This document shows positions 44,177 to 54,753 of a DNA stretch of 54,753 nt, in pieces. Source of the stretch: Clostridia bacterium (lineage in GTDB: Bacteria; Bacillota; Clostridia; Peptostreptococcales; JAAYPU01). Numbering within the stretch: position 1 is the first letter of the stretch; every line of letters begins with the position of its first letter. A program made the position numbers and the translations under genes. The notes under the pieces were generated by a model. The model saw only the letters and a program-made list of their open reading frames with translations. It was not told the DNA's origin and did no database searches. The stretch is taken from the NCBI GenBank assembly GCA_016278615.1, contig JADQBM010000108.1, positions 1-54,753 on the forward strand, given 5' to 3'.

Positions 44177-44479
44177 CTACTTAAGGTCGTTGGAGGTTTT
44201 AATAATATAAGCAAATATTTCTGATACCACCTGATATAATTCTGAAGGAATTTCTTGCCCCAATTCAAGCTGCGATAATAGCCCTGCTGCAGTTTCATCG
44301 CGGCAAATGGGAATTCCTGCTTTATTTGCAACTTCAATAATACGCTCAGCTATATATCCCGCTCCAGAAGCAACAATAACTGGCGATGTATCTTTATTTT
44401 CATCATAAGAAAGGGCTACGGCATTTTTTATTTCTTTATCGTTGTATGAGAGTCGTCGATAATTATTATGCTTTGACAT
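44177..44479 (-). CDS. FlhB C-terminal-like protein (YlqH family)
   Basis: A 100-aa protein matching only the cytoplasmic tail of FlhB/EscU export-switch proteins: NAVALSYDENKDTSPVIVAS, GAGYIAERIIEVANKAGIPI and LELGQEIPSELYQVVSEIFA. The self-cleavage motif NPTH is not present. Stand-alone tails of this kind (YlqH in Bacillus) occur in Firmicutes and their role is unclear. ATG at 44479 overlaps the end of the FliK-like gene, indicating coupling. Confidence 0.88.
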   Translation of the reverse strand: MSKHNNYRRLSYNDKEIKNAVALSYDENKDTSPVIVASGAGYIAERIIEVANKAGIPICRDETAAGLLSQLELGQEIPSELYQVVSEIFAYIIKTSNDLK

Positions 44480-45563
44480 TGATTCCATCCCTTCTTTCGT
44501 GTGAATTGGGAAATACTTCCCTTAATATACGGGCCTGTTTCAATACCATGACTTGGACCCTATTTGAATGGAGACCTGCCTTAGAAGCAGCGTTTCTGAT
44601 GATTTCTTCCAAGTCAAAAAACTCATTAACAAGAGAAGGGGGACAATAAACATGGGTGTCCAATTTCTTGCCTTCAAAAAATATATCTATCTCAAATCGC
44701 CCCATGCTTGTAATATCAATGATCAACAACATACGGATGCTTTTCTCAACCGTCTTTGGTTCTTCTTCATTTTCGCTATTTGAATCCACCCATAATTCCC
44801 CAAATCCACTAATATCTTCATACTTTATGGGGAGCACAAAATGAAGCATAGGTGATTTCATGCTCTGCCCCGCCAATATAACTTTCAGTATTTGCTCACT
44901 GGCAGACTTAAACAAATTGTTTGCCTTATCTATATGGTCTTCTATAAAAGATAAAATTTTTCCTATTACTACCGTTTCTTTCTCAGAGTCCCCTAATATA
45001 GGTTTCCGGATAAAAGAATGTCCTTCGTCCAGAAGTTTTATAAATCGCCTTATTTCTCCCATGGTCTTTTTATTCTGTGTTTTTTGAAGTATCTTAGATA
45101 GTTCTATAAGAGATAATTTCATGTTTTTTTCTATATTTGTGTTTGAAGATTCTGATATATATTCTTTTAAAATCTGAACTACAGCATTTTCTACTCTTTC
45201 ATTATGGGGATTATTCTTGAGAATACTTCTTAGAAGATCAAAAAATTCACCTTTAAAAAGGTTTGTATACTGATGCTGATTTTTGATTTCATAAGGAATG
45301 GATTCAGGTAATATCAACAATTGAGAAAGACCATCTTGAGAGAAAGATGCTCCGTAATGGTATAGGTCTTTTATTGCATTCATAAGACTTGCCGGTTCTT
45401 TTCTATTCAGAATCTCCCATGGAGCAGTCTCCAACTTTTGCTGAGATTGATTCAAAAGATTCCGTTGAATTGACGCTGTGTCTTTACTTGAAGCTGATAA
45501 GATATGCTTATGGTACTTTAAAAGTCTTTCTGTTGCATTTATTTTTGTAAAGGAATCTGTCAT
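44466..45563 (-). CDS. FliK-like / YlqG-type protein upstream of the FlhB-tail protein
   Basis: A 365-aa alpha-rich protein. The N-terminal ~230 residues have no motif I recognise. The C-terminal part (FVLPIKYEDISGFGELWVDS, IDITSMGRFEIDIFFEGKKL and a final helix) resembles the C-terminal domain of the hook-length control protein FliK. FliK interacts with the FlhB tail in flagellar export, and here the next gene, overlapping by 14 nt, is an FlhB tail. No other flagellar gene is nearby. AAAGGAGA precedes ATG. Confidence 0.6.
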   Translation of the reverse strand: MTDSFTKINATERLLKYHKHILSASSKDTASIQRNLLNQSQQKLETAPWEILNRKEPASLMNAIKDLYHYGASFSQDGLSQLLILPESIPYEIKNQHQYTNLFKGEFFDLLRSILKNNPHNERVENAVVQILKEYISESSNTNIEKNMKLSLIELSKILQKTQNKKTMGEIRRFIKLLDEGHSFIRKPILGDSEKETVVIGKILSFIEDHIDKANNLFKSASEQILKVILAGQSMKSPMLHFVLPIKYEDISGFGELWVDSNSENEEEPKTVEKSIRMLLIIDITSMGRFEIDIFFEGKKLDTHVYCPPSLVNEFFDLEEIIRNAASKAGLHSNRVQVMVLKQARILREVFPNSHERRDGINVKA

Positions 45564-45606: not shown

Positions 45607-46791
45607 TCATAAGCATTTTTCTTTACTATCTAATGGGACATTAGCTCGTGTACACGCTTTATAAAAGGTTTCATTTTCATCTCTTCCTGTATGTTCACAG
45701 AGGCCACATTGAATGGTTACACCTATATTATAATATTTAAGAAAGTTTTCTTTAACGGTCTTAATAACATGCTCCACTGCCTTTTGAGCTTTATCTGATG
45801 AAGTCTCAGTAAAGATGACAGCAAAAACACCTGAATTAATATATGCTGCAATATCCGTATTGCGAATACATTGATTTACCGTGTAGGCGGCATATTTCAT
45901 GTGATCTTTATTGAATAAAACTCTAGGGTCAGGATCATTTGATTTTATTGAAAATATGGCGATACAAAATGGATTTACATATCGCAAAAATCTATTTTTC
46001 TCTTTTTCCAATTCCTCGACAAACCCTTTCTTACTTAAAAGGCCTGTTGTTTCATCTTTCACCAGATGCATATCAGCATATAACTGTGCAGCAGAGGCCT
46101 TTGTATGGGAGTGATATAGGTATTTAAATTTATGAGCAAGTGCTTTCAAATCATGGTATTCTAATAACACCTTCCAGTTGTTATCCTCTAATACAAGCAT
46201 CTTTGTAAAGCGATACTCCGTTACTTTTCCTGATTGTATATTTTTTTCTGATATATTCACATCAAACTCAATAATCTTTTCGCAATAGATACCATTCAGA
46301 TAGGTACGTTCATATGTATTAAAAATCCGTGTTTCAAAGTTACCAATTCCATATATCTTTGATACAGCCTCTCTCCACTGTATAAATTCATCTAATACAA
46401 TATTCCTTTTATTCCAATTGCTCAGCAAATGATAGGCTTTTTCAAAACTCTTTTGAGAAAGCGCTGTTAAATACGTGTTCAATGCCCCTTGGGCTTTTTC
46501 ATTATGGACTAATTCAAAGCCCTTTTTCCACTCATGATGTTGATGGATAGATTGTTTTAATGATGAATTATTTTTATTGAGCCATAATTTATGAAATTCT
46601 TTTCTTCCTTCTGGATTTTTTAGAACTTCATAGGCTCTATTAATCTTTCTGATTTTTTCTTCGGAATGCTCGCCTCTATTGATATCCGGATGATATTTTT
46701 TACAGAGACGGCGATAGGCCCCTTCAATAACTTCCTGTTCAGCATTATGATGAACCTGAAGAATATGATAATAATCTTCCCATATTTTCAT
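45607..46791 (-). CDS. J-domain / degenerate GGDEF fusion protein
   Basis: A 394-aa protein. An N-terminal J-domain (about 5-70) has the HPD motif at 34-36 (YHPDINRG). A central module (about 93-215) rich in aromatic beta strands (YLTALSQKSFEKAYHLL, NWKVLLEYHDL) looks like an NTF2/SnoaL-like fold. The C-terminus (about 245-390) is a GGDEF fold starting DETTGLLSKKGF, but the GGDEF signature reads NSGVF at 319-323, so cyclase activity is unlikely. ATG at 46791 follows AAGGA and the J-domain begins there. It probably links Hsp70 binding to a nucleotide-sensing or structural GGDEF. It has its own promoter behind the glucokinase gene. Confidence 0.82.
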   Translation of the reverse strand: MKIWEDYYHILQVHHNAEQEVIEGAYRRLCKKYHPDINRGEHSEEKIRKINRAYEVLKNPEGRKEFHKLWLNKNNSSLKQSIHQHHEWKKGFELVHNEKAQGALNTYLTALSQKSFEKAYHLLSNWNKRNIVLDEFIQWREAVSKIYGIGNFETRIFNTYERTYLNGIYCEKIIEFDVNISEKNIQSGKVTEYRFTKMLVLEDNNWKVLLEYHDLKALAHKFKYLYHSHTKASAAQLYADMHLVKDETTGLLSKKGFVEELEKEKNRFLRYVNPFCIAIFSIKSNDPDPRVLFNKDHMKYAAYTVNQCIRNTDIAAYINSGVFAVIFTETSSDKAQKAVEHVIKTVKENFLKYYNIGVTIQCGLCEHTGRDENETFYKACTRANVPLDSKEKCL

Positions 46792-46849
46792 TACAATTTT
46801 CCTTTCAGCTGGTCCAATTTCCTTCAGTGTATTCAGTGTATAATGTATA

Positions 46850-46878
46850 ATTTTATCACATTTTACCATGAGAGTAAA
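46850..46878 (-). promoter_or_regulatory. promoter of the J-domain/GGDEF gene
   Basis: Minus-strand -35 TTTACT (46878-46873), a 17-nt spacer and -10 TAAAAT (46855-46850). It lies about 60 nt before the start codon. Just upstream is an inverted repeat, GTTCTCTG (46895-46902) and CAGAGAAC (46924-46931), possibly a hairpin ending the glucokinase transcript or an operator. Confidence 0.65.
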
Positions 46879-46983
46879 ACTTCTTGAGGATAACGTTCTC
46901 TGCAACAGGAGGGTCATAGGGAACAGAGAACTGTGGAAAGGAGATAAAAATCCTAAAAATATGAAAGCACTGGAAAACTTATC

Positions 46984-50324: not shown

Positions 50325-51824
50325 TCACAGCCTCTCATATAAATCTGTTATTTCATACATTTTTTTAACCAACTTATCTGTCATTTGTTCTTTTGTGACT
50401 CTCCATCTCCAGTTCAAACCCAATGTGGAGGGCGTATTCATCCTTGCAGAAACTCCCAGACCCAGACAGTCTTGCATTGGAGCAATTGCAATATTTGCCG
50501 GTGAGCTCCAAACACTTCGTATGAACCCCCAATGATACCCTTCTCTTCTGGAGAGTTTTAAGTACTTAATGGCATAAGCCTTATAAGATTTTCTCGTGGT
50601 CTTTAACCACCCTATTACCGTTTCGTTGTCATGGGTTCCTGTATAAGCCGCACAATTTTCACGATAATTATGGGGTAAATAAGTGCCTTTCCTTCTATTA
50701 TCAAAGGCGAATAGTAGCACTTTCATGCCTGGGAAACCTGTTTGATCTAAAAGCTCATTTACCTCGGGCGTCAGAAAACCTAAGTCTTCCGCAATAATGT
50801 GTATATCCTGAAAATCTTTTTTAACCTGATTGAAAAACTTAATTCCAGGTCCTTTTACCCATCTGCCATTTACAGATGTATGTTCTCCATAGGGCACTTC
50901 CCAAAAAGACTCAAAACCCCTAAAATGGTCAAATCTTACAATATCATATAGATTTTTACTGGTTTCAATTCTTCTCATCCACCAATCATAGTTGCTTTTC
51001 TCAAGAAATTCCCAATTATAAATTGGGTTTCCCCATAACTGACCTGTTCTGGAAAATGAATCTGGTGGACATCCAGAAACACATTTAGGTATCATGTTTT
51101 TATCCAAAAGAAAAATATCACTATGGGTCCATGTATCCGCACTGTCATAAGCCGTGTAAATTGGGATATCTCCAATAATTTTAATCCCCTTATCATTGGA
51201 ATATTCTTTAAGATTTTTCCATTGTTCAAAAAAGTTATATTGTATAAATACCCAAAAGTTTATCTCATCTTCCAGTTCCCCTCTGTATTCCTTCAAGGTC
51301 TTTTTGTCTCTTTGTTTCAAATTAGTGTCCCATTTAAACCATGGCTTATTATTGAATTTTGTTTTTAAAGACATAAACAATGCATAATCCAAAAGCCAGT
51401 ATTTGTTTTCTTTTTGAAATTCTTGTAGATCATTGATTTCACACCTTTTTGACCTTTTGTAAGCCAATCGAAGAATCGCCATTTTATTTTTTGAAATTTT
51501 TTGATAATCCAGCCTCTTCTTATTTCTTCCATAATTGACATGCTTATATTCTGCTTCTTTAAGCAATCCTTTTCTTCTTAATAAATCAAGACAAATAAAA
51601 TAGGGGTTTCCGGCAAAGGATGAAAAAGTTTGGTAAGGAGAATCGCCGTAACCTGTAGGGCCTAAAGGTAGTATTTGCCAATATTTCTGCCCGGCGCTTT
51701 CAAGGAAATCTACGAAGTCATAGGCCTCTTTACCAAAAGTCCCTATTCCGAATTCTCCTGGCAAAGAGGAAATATGCATCAATATGCCGCTACCTCTTTG
51801 ATTTTTTTTAATATCTGATTTCAT
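50325..51824 (-). CDS. malQ: 4-alpha-glucanotransferase
   Basis: A 499-aa GH77 enzyme that remodels maltodextrins for the phosphorylase. Motifs: GSGILMHISSLPGEFGIGTF, YWQILPLGPTGYGDSPYQ, nucleophile Asp in IVRFDHFRGFESFWEVP, acid/base Glu in IIAEDLGFLTPEV and YTGTHDNETVIGWL. ATG at 51824 is used; the TTG six codons earlier has no binding site. No strong promoter is seen directly before it. The nearest clear one drives the c-di-GMP riboswitch 460 nt upstream, with two terminators in between. Confidence 0.95.
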   Translation of the reverse strand: MKSDIKKNQRGSGILMHISSLPGEFGIGTFGKEAYDFVDFLESAGQKYWQILPLGPTGYGDSPYQTFSSFAGNPYFICLDLLRRKGLLKEAEYKHVNYGRNKKRLDYQKISKNKMAILRLAYKRSKRCEINDLQEFQKENKYWLLDYALFMSLKTKFNNKPWFKWDTNLKQRDKKTLKEYRGELEDEINFWVFIQYNFFEQWKNLKEYSNDKGIKIIGDIPIYTAYDSADTWTHSDIFLLDKNMIPKCVSGCPPDSFSRTGQLWGNPIYNWEFLEKSNYDWWMRRIETSKNLYDIVRFDHFRGFESFWEVPYGEHTSVNGRWVKGPGIKFFNQVKKDFQDIHIIAEDLGFLTPEVNELLDQTGFPGMKVLLFAFDNRRKGTYLPHNYRENCAAYTGTHDNETVIGWLKTTRKSYKAYAIKYLKLSRREGYHWGFIRSVWSSPANIAIAPMQDCLGLGVSARMNTPSTLGLNWRWRVTKEQMTDKLVKKMYEITDLYERL

Positions 51825-51934
51825 CGTCCACTCAACTTTCAAAGCTATTTTTCTTATATTTTGCTTCTTTACCCTTATAGTTATTCTTTTCCTTTAAAAT
51901 CATTTTTTCAATATTTAACCAAAAGTTAAGCATT

Positions 51935-51956
51935 TAAAAAAGTGGCTAACGCCACT
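51935..51956 (-). terminator. terminator between riboswitch region and malQ
   Basis: Minus-strand AGTGGC, GTTA, GCCACT followed by TTTTTA. It is the left end of a GC-rich hairpin-bearing segment (51941-52033). It would stop any transcript that had passed the riboswitch terminator. Confidence 0.7.
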
Positions 51957-52033
51957 CCGCTATGGAACCCTATGGTTCCCTTCGGCGCTGCACCCTCCTT
52001 AATCGGCAAAGGAGTATCCCCTCTGCACTCCCC
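51941..52033. repeat. GC-rich multi-hairpin intergenic segment, possible mobile repeat
   Basis: This stretch is far more GC-rich than its surroundings and contains several small inverted repeats, such as GGAACC(C)/GGTTCC around CTAT and AGTGGC/GCCACT. It has no coding support on either strand. It looks like a REP- or MITE-type insertion between the riboswitch and malQ, but no second copy occurs in the window. Confidence 0.45.
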
Positions 52034-52037
52034 TTTT

Positions 52038-52071
52038 TATATAATAGAAAATCGATATTTTCTATTATATA
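52038..52071. repeat. 15-bp AT-rich inverted repeat
   Basis: TATATAATAGAAAAT (52038-52052) and its complement (52057-52071) around CGAT. It lies between the riboswitch terminator and the GC-rich segment. It may be an end of an inserted element or a second hairpin of the leader. Confidence 0.7.
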
Positions 52072-52102
52072 AAAAAATAGCCTATATTAAAAAATATAGG
52101 CT
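52071..52102 (-). terminator. intrinsic terminator of the c-di-GMP riboswitch
   Basis: Minus-strand AGCCTATATT, loop TTTT, AATATAGGCT followed by ATTTTTTT. It lies about 48 nt past the aptamer, the usual position for a riboswitch expression platform. The aptamer segment CTATAGG could pair with the 5' arm (CCTATA), offering an antiterminator; that pairing is inferred. Confidence 0.88.
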
Positions 52103-52149
52103 TAAAAGTATATATATAAATGATGATAAGATTGGCTTGGTAAATATTT

Positions 52150-52258
52150 ATTGCAAAACAAAACTTCCCTTTCGGGAGCTGGCTGTCATACATTTTCATG
52201 TTTAGACCCTATAGCTTTGCGTCCTTATTTTTCAATAAGTTTGCCTTTTCGGTGGAAA
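52150..52258 (-). promoter_or_regulatory. c-di-GMP-I (GEMM-I) riboswitch aptamer
   Basis: On the minus strand the order of conserved blocks is GGCAAAC, a stem CTTATT-GAAA-AATAAG with a GNRA loop, GACGCAAAGC, GGGTCTAAAC, a small CATGAAAATG stem, and ATGACAGCCAGCTCCCGAAA. These are the hallmark blocks of the class I c-di-GMP aptamer, including the GAAA tetraloop. Closing bases ACTTTCC and GGGAAGT can form P1. The switch has its own promoter upstream and terminator downstream; the next gene in its direction is malQ. Confidence 0.92.
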
Positions 52259-52287
52259 GTAATTCCAAACAATTTTTAATTAACTTA

Positions 52288-52315
52288 ATTGTACCACATC
52301 ATAATTATAAGTCAA
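52288..52315 (-). promoter_or_regulatory. promoter of the c-di-GMP riboswitch
   Basis: Minus-strand -35 TTGACT (52315-52310), a 16-nt spacer and -10 TACAAT (52293-52288). The aptamer starts about 30 nt downstream of the -10. It lies in the gap behind the solute-binding gene at 52354. Confidence 0.88.
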
Positions 52316-52353
52316 CTTTTTTCTGCAAAATTTTACCTTTTTCTCAAATTTTT

Positions 52354-53169
52354 TTATAGGATCAGATTATTTCCAAACCACTTTTTTGAAATTCTTTCAA
52401 GGGTACCATCTTCTTTCATTTCATTTATTATTCGGTCCATTTCTTCTCTAAAAGTATCCTCTTCTTTTCTAAAACCTATTCCATGTAATTCGCTACCCAT
52501 TTCATCTATTATTCTAAATTCAGATGGTCTTTGTTTTATGACGTATTTCCCAAAGGTTTCTTTTACAACGGCAGCATCTATGGCACCTATCCCTAATTGT
52601 GTCATCGCCTCCTGATCCGTATCATATTCTACAATCTCAGCAATAGACTCCACAAATGGTTTATCTTCATCAATAATATGATAACCTTCACTATTTGAAA
52701 CAAGTCCTACGGTTCTATTTTGCATGCTGTCTTTTGACTGGATGTCGGAGTCAGACCGAACAAGCATGATGCTTCGATTATCTACATAGGGTTTAGAAAA
52801 TTCAATCTCTTCATTGGTTTCAGTTTCTGTGTCTATTATGACACCATTAATAACATCTACTTCTTTATTTATGAGCTTCAAGAAACCATTTTCCGAATTA
52901 ATCGTTTCTACCTGGATTTTTAGACCCATTCTATTGGCAACTTCTGTCATAAGTTCCAGATCAAAACCCGCAATCTCATCATTTCTCTCAACAAATGATA
53001 AAGGGGGCATGTCATCGTACAGACCAAGAATAAAGGTTCCTTTCTCTTTGACTTCCTGAAGCGATGTATCTGGAGTATTATCTTCAGGCGGCTCTTCCTG
53101 AGTGCAACCTACAATAATGACACTCAACACACATACAATTAAAATGAATAACCTTGCTTTTCTGATCAT
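52354..53169 (-). CDS. solute-binding lipoprotein, amino-acid ABC type (SBP_bac_3)
   Basis: A 271-aa lipoprotein. The signal peptide KARLFILIVCVLSVIIVGC ends in the lipobox IVGC (Cys22). The mature domain has FILGLYDDMPPLSFVERNDE, IAGFDLELMTEVANRMGL, EVDVINGVIIDTETETNEE, IEFSKPYVDNRSIMLVRSD and a C-terminal GTLERISKKWFG, typical of polar-amino-acid binding proteins. AGGAGG precedes ATG. No permease or ATPase is adjacent, so it works with a distant transporter or as a sensor. Between asnA and this gene no strong terminator is visible. Confidence 0.9.
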   Translation of the reverse strand: MIRKARLFILIVCVLSVIIVGCTQEEPPEDNTPDTSLQEVKEKGTFILGLYDDMPPLSFVERNDEIAGFDLELMTEVANRMGLKIQVETINSENGFLKLINKEVDVINGVIIDTETETNEEIEFSKPYVDNRSIMLVRSDSDIQSKDSMQNRTVGLVSNSEGYHIIDEDKPFVESIAEIVEYDTDQEAMTQLGIGAIDAAVVKETFGKYVIKQRPSEFRIIDEMGSELHGIGFRKEEDTFREEMDRIINEMKEDGTLERISKKWFGNNLIL

Positions 53170-53293
53170 GAGAACGCCTCCTAAAATATTTTTGCAGTCA
53201 TTGATAATTATACTTTATTCCACAAGTCCTGTAAAATGATTAAAAATGGTAAAAGAAAATTAAGAAAATGATCGTGTTATCTAAACCTCAAGT

Positions 53294-54316
53294 TTAAAGC
53301 AAAAATATTTTTTGTTCTTTGCAAATATCGATCATTTCCTTTGGCCAAACCGATACCTGTACTTCCCCAATATGGGCTTTTTCCAAAAAGTACATGCATA
53401 GTCTGGACTGACCGATGCCACCACCAATGGAATAAGGTAATTTTTTTTCAGCAATCATCTGATGAAATTCTAAATTCATTCGATCCATATTCCCTGAAAT
53501 CTCCAGTTGCTTTAATAATGTATCTTCATCAACCCGTATACCCATTGAAGTTATTTCATAAGCCCTCTCAAGTAATGAATTCCATAAAATGATATCCCCA
53601 TTAAGTTCCCAGTCATCATAATCCGGTGCTCTTCCATCATGCTTGATACCCGATTCTAAGACGCCTCCCACTTTCATGACAAAAACAGCGCGTTTTTCTT
53701 TTGCAATGGCATCTTCTCTCTCTTTAGGTGTAAGGCCTGGGAAGGTATTTTCTAACTCTTGAGTTGTAATAAAGTAAATATCCTCAGGGAGTTTTTGATG
53801 CAGTGATGGATACAAGTCACAAATATAATGATCTAATTTTTTTAGGGCCGTATATATTTTTTCAACCACATCCCTAAGATAGGCTTCACAACGGTCTTCT
53901 TTTTCTATGGCTTTTTCCCAATCCCACTGATCCACATAGATAGAGTGCAAATTATCAAGTTCCTCATCTCTTCGGATAGCATTCATGTCTGTATACAAAC
54001 CTGTATGTCGCTGAAAATCATATTTTCCTAATGCCATTCGCTTCCATTTTGCTAAAGATTGAACAATTTCAACTTTCTTTTCGTTTAAATCTTTCAGGGT
54101 AAAATCTACAGGTCTTTCGACACCGTTTAAGTTATCATTGAGCCCTGTCACTGGGTCCACAAATAAAGGGGCGGAAACACGTGTTAAATCTAACTGTTTT
54201 GACAACTCAGCTTCAAAGTAGTCCTTCATTTTCTTGATGGCAATTTCTGTATCCATTAGGCTCAATCCCGGTTTATAGCCCTGGGGTAAGATCAGGCTTT
54301 CCTTCATTGACTTCAT
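53294..54316 (-). CDS. asnA: aspartate-ammonia ligase (asparagine synthetase A)
   Basis: A 340-aa ATP-dependent enzyme making asparagine from aspartate and ammonia, related to class II aminoacyl-tRNA synthetases. Characteristic text: LTRVSAPLFVDPVTGLNDNL, GVERPVDFTLKDL, EIVQSLAKWKRMALGKYDF, HSIYVDQWDWEKAI and GGGIGQSRLCMYFLEKAHIG. AGGAGG lies 8 nt before ATG. An asparagine T-box in the leader shows control by uncharged tRNA-Asn. Confidence 0.97.
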   Translation of the reverse strand: MKSMKESLILPQGYKPGLSLMDTEIAIKKMKDYFEAELSKQLDLTRVSAPLFVDPVTGLNDNLNGVERPVDFTLKDLNEKKVEIVQSLAKWKRMALGKYDFQRHTGLYTDMNAIRRDEELDNLHSIYVDQWDWEKAIEKEDRCEAYLRDVVEKIYTALKKLDHYICDLYPSLHQKLPEDIYFITTQELENTFPGLTPKEREDAIAKEKRAVFVMKVGGVLESGIKHDGRAPDYDDWELNGDIILWNSLLERAYEITSMGIRVDEDTLLKQLEISGNMDRMNLEFHQMIAEKKLPYSIGGGIGQSRLCMYFLEKAHIGEVQVSVWPKEMIDICKEQKIFLL

Positions 54317-54347
54317 TTTTTAGTCCTCCTTAAAATAATTTTAAAAC

Positions 54348-54382
54348 AAAAAACCCCTCATCCCTGATAGGGACGAAAGGTT
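54348..54382 (-). terminator. T-box terminator hairpin of asnA
   Basis: A 14-bp stem with G-U pairs: AACCTTTCGTCCCT (54382-54369) and AGGGATGAGGGGTT (54365-54352), then TTTTTT. It overlaps the region downstream of the T-box sequence, as expected for a terminator that competes with the antiterminator. Confidence 0.92.
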
Positions 54383-54625
54383 GCTTTCGCGGTACCACCC
54401 TTATTAACGAATCATATTCGTTCTCTCAATGTAGGTACAGATATGTCATCGATACCCTACGCCAATAACGGTGCGCCTCCGTCTAAGTCTACTTTCCATA
54501 AAAGATTTTGATTAGATGCTCAGAGATGTTCTTCAATCGTAATATCCGTATCGGCTTTTCACCATCCCGACTCTCTCTTAACTTCATATTACGTCTACTC
54601 TTCTCATCATCGCTTTTCATGAATT
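54348..54625 (-). promoter_or_regulatory. asparagine-specific T-box leader
   Basis: The conserved T-box sequence AGGGTGGTACCGCG is at 54401-54388 on the minus strand. The base of stem I is formed by AGAGAG (about 54576) and CTCT near 54523; the codon directly before the 3' strand is AAC (54530-54528), the specifier for asparagine. This matches the downstream asnA gene. Uncharged tRNA-Asn should favour the antiterminator and raise expression. Confidence 0.93.
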
Positions 54626-54631
54626 TATAAT

Positions 54632-54660
54632 AGTATATATTTTAATACTATTATAGTCAA
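54632..54660 (-). promoter_or_regulatory. sigma-A promoter of asnA
   Basis: Minus-strand -35 TTGACT (54660-54655), a 17-nt spacer and -10 TATACT (54637-54632). A 10-bp inverted repeat, ATAATAGTAT and ATACTATTAT, spans the spacer and -10. The sequence from 54661 to the window end shows no gene or signal that I can support. Confidence 0.88.
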
Positions 54661-54753
54661 TACTTATAAAGATTATTACAAAAATTAGTCCTCTAAATCC
54701 GGGAGTTTGACAGTTGAATTTGAAAAAAATAGCTACGAGCCTTGAAATGGCTT

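Follow-up and report, generated by a model that had tools for sequence, protein, structure and literature searches.

A probable stand-alone c-di-GMP riboswitch RNA and a terminator-associated repeat next to a clostridial malQ gene

Features upstream of malQ

The window (the whole stretch of DNA analysed, 54,753 nucleotides) carries malQ at 50325..51824 on the minus strand, assigned from its ORF and a family match as the gene for a 4-alpha-glucanotransferase of family GH77. It is the first gene of a glycogen cluster and is followed on the same strand by glgP and a gene for a ROK-family kinase; a first-pass annotation of this DNA had placed a malQ-glgP-glucokinase operon downstream of a c-di-GMP aptamer, and these three genes do lie on the aptamer strand. 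Beyond the cluster, a 103-aa protein (44177-44488, minus) resembles the C-terminal part alone of FlhB (PF01312, 73.1 bits). Our comparisons draw mainly on G001 and G002, both MAGs whose own joins could be wrong, which limits all arguments from synteny. G001 is the closest relative found, of the same family and another genus, with a malQ 79% identical. A gene whose product has a J domain and, toward the C terminus, a GGDEF-like stretch (45607-46917, minus; PF00990, 27.5 bits against a cut-off of 23.8) adjoins the glycogen genes in both genera (L113:4113-5339 in G001), and by eye its GGDEF signature looks lost, reading NSGVF or NPGVF. The G001 locus also has, between glgP and the J-domain gene and on the opposite strand, a protein that reads as EAL-plus-GGDEF (L113:5511-7280).

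The c-di-GMP-I riboswitch aptamer (52171..52255, minus) was matched at full length, model positions 1-87, by Rfam RF01051, at 82.2 bits against a cut-off of 35 (E = 1e-14, whole window searched). The earlier description of a well-formed class I aptamer thus stands; by sequence and fold it is a genuine member of the c-di-GMP-I class, and it would be expected to bind the ligand. Upstream, at 52288..52315 on the same strand, a consensus scan found the promoter-like site TTGACT-N16-TACAAT with a TG extension, which agrees with the consensus at 10 of 12 positions. Shuffled sequence is not poorer in sites of this kind (19 found against a mean of 15.0), and the site is assigned as the promoter of the c-di-GMP RNA by consensus only; promoter-like sequence is visible by eye at the equivalent place in the alignment with G001 and G002. 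Downstream, the terminator scan placed an intrinsic terminator with its T tract at 52071..52102 (minus), the hairpin of 10 pairs spanning 52102-52079. Terminator-like sites number six in 50800-54753, against a mean of 1.9 in shuffles, and this terminator shows one compensatory change in G001, from A-U to G-C. The promoter and terminator claimed for the aptamer are therefore both present, as predictions.

A dispersed repeat at intrinsic terminators

Between this terminator and malQ, the first-pass annotation had seen a second hairpin, a GC-rich segment and a further terminator. All three are present, and together they form one copy of a dispersed repeat (51936..52070, minus), delimited by matches and folding. 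The copy consists of an AT palindrome, which is the second hairpin and lies at about 52076-52034, a GC-rich core, and a right-end hairpin followed by six T residues (GTGGCGTTAGCCAC + T6, 51936..51955, minus); this last hairpin is visible in the sequence and the fold and absent from the list of the consensus terminator scan. Within the core, 51975..52040 (minus) matches the Clostridiales-2 RNA of Rfam (RF02937) at 57.8 bits, just below the cut-off of 58.6 (E = 2.3e-13); five other copies score 73-79 bits. The family was reportedly first described in a 2017 survey of candidate structured RNAs. A search of the available literature returned no paper that names the Clostridiales-2 RNA.

This genome, of 3.5 Mb and 128 contigs, contains no fewer than 21 copies of the repeat, and the segment 51935-52035 gives 36 matches in it, pieces included. 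Six copies, that of the window among them, are nearly full length at 95-100% identity. The copies share a plan of T tract, AT palindrome, GC-rich core, terminal hairpin and T tract, and measure 135-137 bp; longer variants span 152-341 bp. The repeat was found in 25 of the 198 genomes of the order that were searched, own included, 18 of them over the cut-off, and six with at least 21 scored candidates each; genomes with copies include G066, G068, G083, G095, G120 and G130. With many dispersed copies and a patchy occurrence across relatives, it has the distribution of a mobile repeat. A phage origin was considered and dropped, there being no match among phage records. The genome has six matches to Y1 transposases and one to a reverse transcriptase, and blastn of one repeat copy against these seven loci (up to 1.5 kb of flank each) returned two short, weak matches. 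At one locus (L271, on contig C36) a copy lies, by eye, between parA- and parB-like genes, beside a hairpin that resembles a parS site.

Copies of the repeat sit against terminators. When position was tested tightly, 60 of 77 copies had a terminator directly against their left end (19 of 21 in this genome, 41 of 56 in others). The controls gave 12 of 446 for shifted windows and 8 of 385 for shuffled flanks, and some of the 17 copies that failed have terminators visible by eye. The right end is closed by a terminator in 43 of the 56 copies of other genomes and in 9 of 224 control windows. By eye, all 16 copies inspected come after a hairpin and T tract. The position-tight test supersedes a looser one (43 of 57 copies, 62 of 191 controls), for which 13 of 70 loci had been dropped because no core was found. 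G001 has an uninterrupted terminator at six of seven corresponding places, again by eye: hairpin and T tract are kept at the riboswitch, at a 72-aa ORF and at the sites matching C46, C11a, C18 and C31, and the C36 site has a hairpin that lacks a T tract. Because terminators abut the copies and the G001 sites keep theirs uninterrupted, we take this as insertion of the repeat into existing terminators, with the help of a putative mobilising enzyme. The data indicate that Clostridiales-2, an "sRNA" family in Rfam, forms the body of a terminator-invading repeat with its own end terminator. Such a repeat is relevant to annotation and to the placing of transcription boundaries, and it bears on how far contigs that cross it can be trusted.

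The junction between riboswitch and malQ

The junction riboswitch-repeat-malQ disagrees with G001. The look for the same arrangement in relatives that the first-pass annotation had proposed came out negative there on both sides: the G001 riboswitch precedes tRNA-Pro(GGG), and G001 malQ has another upstream neighbour, the 72-aa ORF with its own terminator, along with an EcsC-like gene. No Rfam family was found in the G001 malQ locus, including any riboswitch in the 1500 bases of flank covered. Control of glycogen use by c-di-GMP is thus unsupported, and across relatives it fares no better. A malQ match was found in 46 of 60 genomes, own included, and none of the 20 malQ loci scanned (of 29 from relatives, with flanks of up to 1500 bases) has the aptamer.

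These counts and the synteny led us to reject the idea that the glycogen operon answers to c-di-GMP by way of a long leader in which termination is staged, which the first-pass annotation had offered as one of its options. The orientation would fit such a leader, the aptamer is intact and has a terminator, and the gene cluster includes the J-domain protein with its GGDEF-like domain. Against it, besides the 20 loci, the intervening DNA is a copy of the dispersed repeat, and the malQ-side flank resembles the sequence after another gene's terminator in G001. We find such control barely credible, and an attractive connection of c-di-GMP with glycogen use, for which support is lacking, is thereby removed.

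Both missing neighbours were located on other contigs of this genome. On C113, the 72-aa ORF and its terminator lead into the left part of a repeat copy, and the contig stops about 69 bases into that copy; C61 opens within the right part of a copy and runs on into tRNA-Pro. Over its final 3.4 kb, C113 is colinear with the region that precedes malQ in G001. C61, except for about 0.9 kb found in C61 only, is colinear over the compared span with the region that follows the riboswitch in G001 (69-87% DNA identity for the two). To judge from this gene order, the window contig apparently changes context inside its repeat copy, and the true upstream neighbour of malQ most likely lies on C113. Since each missing neighbour sits on a contig broken inside the repeat, the adjacency of riboswitch and malQ is probably a misassembly, and otherwise a repeat-mediated rearrangement.

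A rearrangement could have taken the form of a real inversion between oppositely oriented repeat copies, putting the riboswitch before malQ in this lineage. An inversion would yield exactly the two novel junctions, and the copies that could serve as its substrate number at least 21. The assembly also often joins correctly across the repeat: 14 junctions were built and eight compared with G001, and the five that are informative on both flanks (C46, C11a, C36, C31 and C18) are all colinear with it, which leaves room for a true inversion; of the remaining junctions, C68 had no hits, C89 was left undecided by paralogues and C113a was covered on one side only. An inversion would require that the two copies, which lie on unordered contigs, be oppositely oriented on the chromosome. 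What tells against it is that its reciprocal junction, 72-aa ORF-repeat-tRNA-Pro, is unassembled, and that on either side of this junction a contig breaks off within the repeat, the pattern that a wrong join leaves. We regard an inversion as unlikely, though by no means negligible; were it real, whatever regulation malQ received would be new and would need read-through of two terminators. The proposal that an insertion cut the aptamer from its target is correct in that a repeat copy lies in the T tract of the riboswitch terminator, and falls short in that malQ most likely comes from elsewhere in the genome.

A candidate c-di-GMP-responsive RNA

The SBP_bac_3 gene upstream of the aptamer in the window (52354..53169, minus) has its closest matches in G001 and G002 (55% and 42% identity, respectively) also upstream of the riboswitch, with one extra ORF between gene and aptamer in G002. 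Farther upstream in the window, a T-box leader (54366-54619, minus, 120.5 bits) lies ahead of an asnA-like gene. The order in G001 is asnA-like and SBP genes, riboswitch, tRNA-Pro(GGG), and a cardiolipin-synthase-like gene on the opposite strand (asnA-like and cardiolipin-synthase-like are names given from reading the sequence, with no family search), and no same-strand protein gene was seen close behind the aptamer there. Could the riboswitch regulate tRNA-Pro(GGG) by read-through? In G001 the tRNA comes next, and C61 has a tRNA-Pro at its start, but a terminator and a separate promoter-like sequence precede the tRNA position, both recognisable by eye in the three genera; in G001 this promoter-like sequence belongs to the tRNA gene. 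The roughly 340 bases examined after the terminator of the c-di-GMP RNA in G002 yielded no tRNA. We therefore hold regulation of the tRNA to be very unlikely.

Judged by position only, the aptamer is not expected to control a coding gene directly downstream. The four other aptamers found in this genome each lie 33-137 nt before a same-strand ORF, and by eye these ORFs read as secreted, surface or chemotaxis proteins. From this sequence context, the window aptamer is the sole one found in the genome without a protein gene as its close neighbour in the ancestral arrangement. Elsewhere, the core could be located in 26 of 29 further aptamer loci. Two apparent exceptions, L070 and L085, proved on reading the sequence to have genes just downstream; at L087 the next ORF is at +404, and L068 is the G002 RNA itself. 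G001 also contains four tandem c-di-GMP-I aptamers ahead of one secreted-looking protein gene (L114:4225-4860, that is G001:C14:50224-50859), with, by eye, a very short ORF between the two pairs.

The c-di-GMP RNA is conserved in three genera of one family, a statement that rests on three known sequences. The longest identical run in their alignment is not in the aptamer. It is a 25-nt segment preceding the terminator, CCAATCTTATCATCATTTATATATA (52111..52135, minus). Identical columns, with gap columns counted, make up 25 of 27 over 52136-52110 versus 3 of 38 immediately before, 68 of 89 in the aptamer and 12 of 45 upstream of the promoter-like site. The segment is mostly unpaired in predicted folds, with a mean unpaired probability of 0.84 in the window and 0.81 in G001, and is less open in G002 (0.57). 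Its exact sequence is present in 3 of the 297 genomes searched in the order, this one among them; with three mismatches allowed, it was found in 14 further genomes, and a reversed control pattern in 19. A search of the genome contig collection gave six exact 19-nt matches, and the two that adjoin an aptamer are the G001 and G002 records. A conserved peptide is an unlikely explanation, as by eye the reading frame differs between the window and G001, and pairing of the segment inside the RNA was likewise set aside, as the folds of the three sequences share no such pairing.

How the aptamer might act on this segment is suggested by its flanks. The sequence GGGAAG (52164..52169, minus; from the fold and inspection) can serve as the 3´ strand of a possible outer P1 helix by pairing with CUUUCC at 52259-52254, or can pair with CUCCC just upstream, and both strands of the helix are kept in the three genera. 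In unconstrained folds the local hairpin CUCCC-GAA(A)-GGGA beats P1 by about 5-9 kcal/mol, so that P1 would need the ligand, and it is plausible that the two form a switch. In G002, an early terminator is visible by eye after the aptamer, and thus c-di-GMP could there decide whether the 25-nt segment is made. No early terminator was seen in the window or G001, and the folds revealed no coupling between the P1 region and the distant terminator; control in these two would therefore act on stability or accessibility.

The region has features typical of sRNAs: a promoter-like site, a terminator, an open conserved segment and no conserved ORF. A target scan of three genomes, with G-U pairs and at most one mismatch allowed, gave 26 matches to the segment, of which 3 are the RNA itself and 23 non-self, compared with 7 for the reversed control pattern. 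Nearly all lie within coding frames. In reading the translated ORFs, which is not a formal orthology test, we recognised no shared mRNA target, that is, no match in the same gene of two of the three genomes scanned.

Another reading is that the aptamer is an orphan relic that lost its gene and has no function. No gene lies closely behind it, and a class I aptamer is also listed as an orphan in C. difficile 630 (PMC11477304). A relic would hardly be expected to be followed by 25 nt more conserved than the aptamer across three genera, or to show a compensatory change in its terminator, and we consider this reading improbable. What we think likely is a stand-alone c-di-GMP RNA with the repeat in its terminator, and a malQ operon joined to it from elsewhere via the repeat. 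The self-contained RNA of about 200 nt would comprise the promoter-like site, aptamer, invariant segment and terminator, and its amount or accessibility would depend on c-di-GMP. As no gene is evident that it could control in cis, we infer a regulatory RNA that would act in trans. The 25-nt segment could be its functional part, in the simplest case an antisense seed together with a chaperone site. A terminator-seeking repeat whose core is Clostridiales-2 would have inserted into the T tract of the RNA's terminator. The malQ operon would belong elsewhere in the chromosome; its joining through the repeat would most likely be the work of the assembler, and less likely that of an inversion between two copies. 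The stand-alone RNA that the first-pass annotation gave as an option is thus partly right: the G001 RNA precedes tRNA-Pro(GGG), and transcription is presumed. More tentatively, as a possibility and not as our expectation, we suggest a c-di-GMP-gated trans-acting sRNA, in which the aptamer sets the level or accessibility of a 25-nt seed that pairs with mRNAs elsewhere. If true, c-di-GMP would here signal via a diffusible RNA rather than a leader. In any case the locus is a compact candidate for a c-di-GMP-sensing stand-alone RNA, with a predicted transcript of about 200 nt.

The aptamer is of the same class as the c-di-GMP-I (GEMM-I) riboswitches of Clostridia, with a strong Rfam match; the RNA described here differs in that no close same-strand coding gene follows in G001 and in the invariant segment before the terminator. 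SreA and Rli55 of Listeria are riboswitch-derived trans-acting RNAs with other ligands, and our candidate resembles them as an aptamer-bearing transcript proposed to act in trans. A precedent is given by the antitoxin RNAs RCd11 and RCd12 of C. difficile, which are under class I c-di-GMP riboswitches (PMC7699646; PMC11477304); they likewise present a c-di-GMP-I riboswitch feeding a noncoding RNA (PMC7699646). They differ in being prophage antitoxin antisense RNAs with a second, stronger promoter (PMC7699646; PMC11477304). The core of the repeat matches Clostridiales-2, filed as an sRNA (RF02937); here the matching sequence makes up the body of a repeat that lies in many copies in the T tracts of terminators and has an AT palindrome on the left and its own terminator at the right end. 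The SPRITE repeats of pneumococcus, likened here by description, are likewise small repeats with terminator-like sequence (PMC10969869). Group IIC introns insert beside DNA stem-loops (PMC10190682) and share with our repeat the targeting of stem-loops; for the repeat itself no mobilising enzyme was identified.
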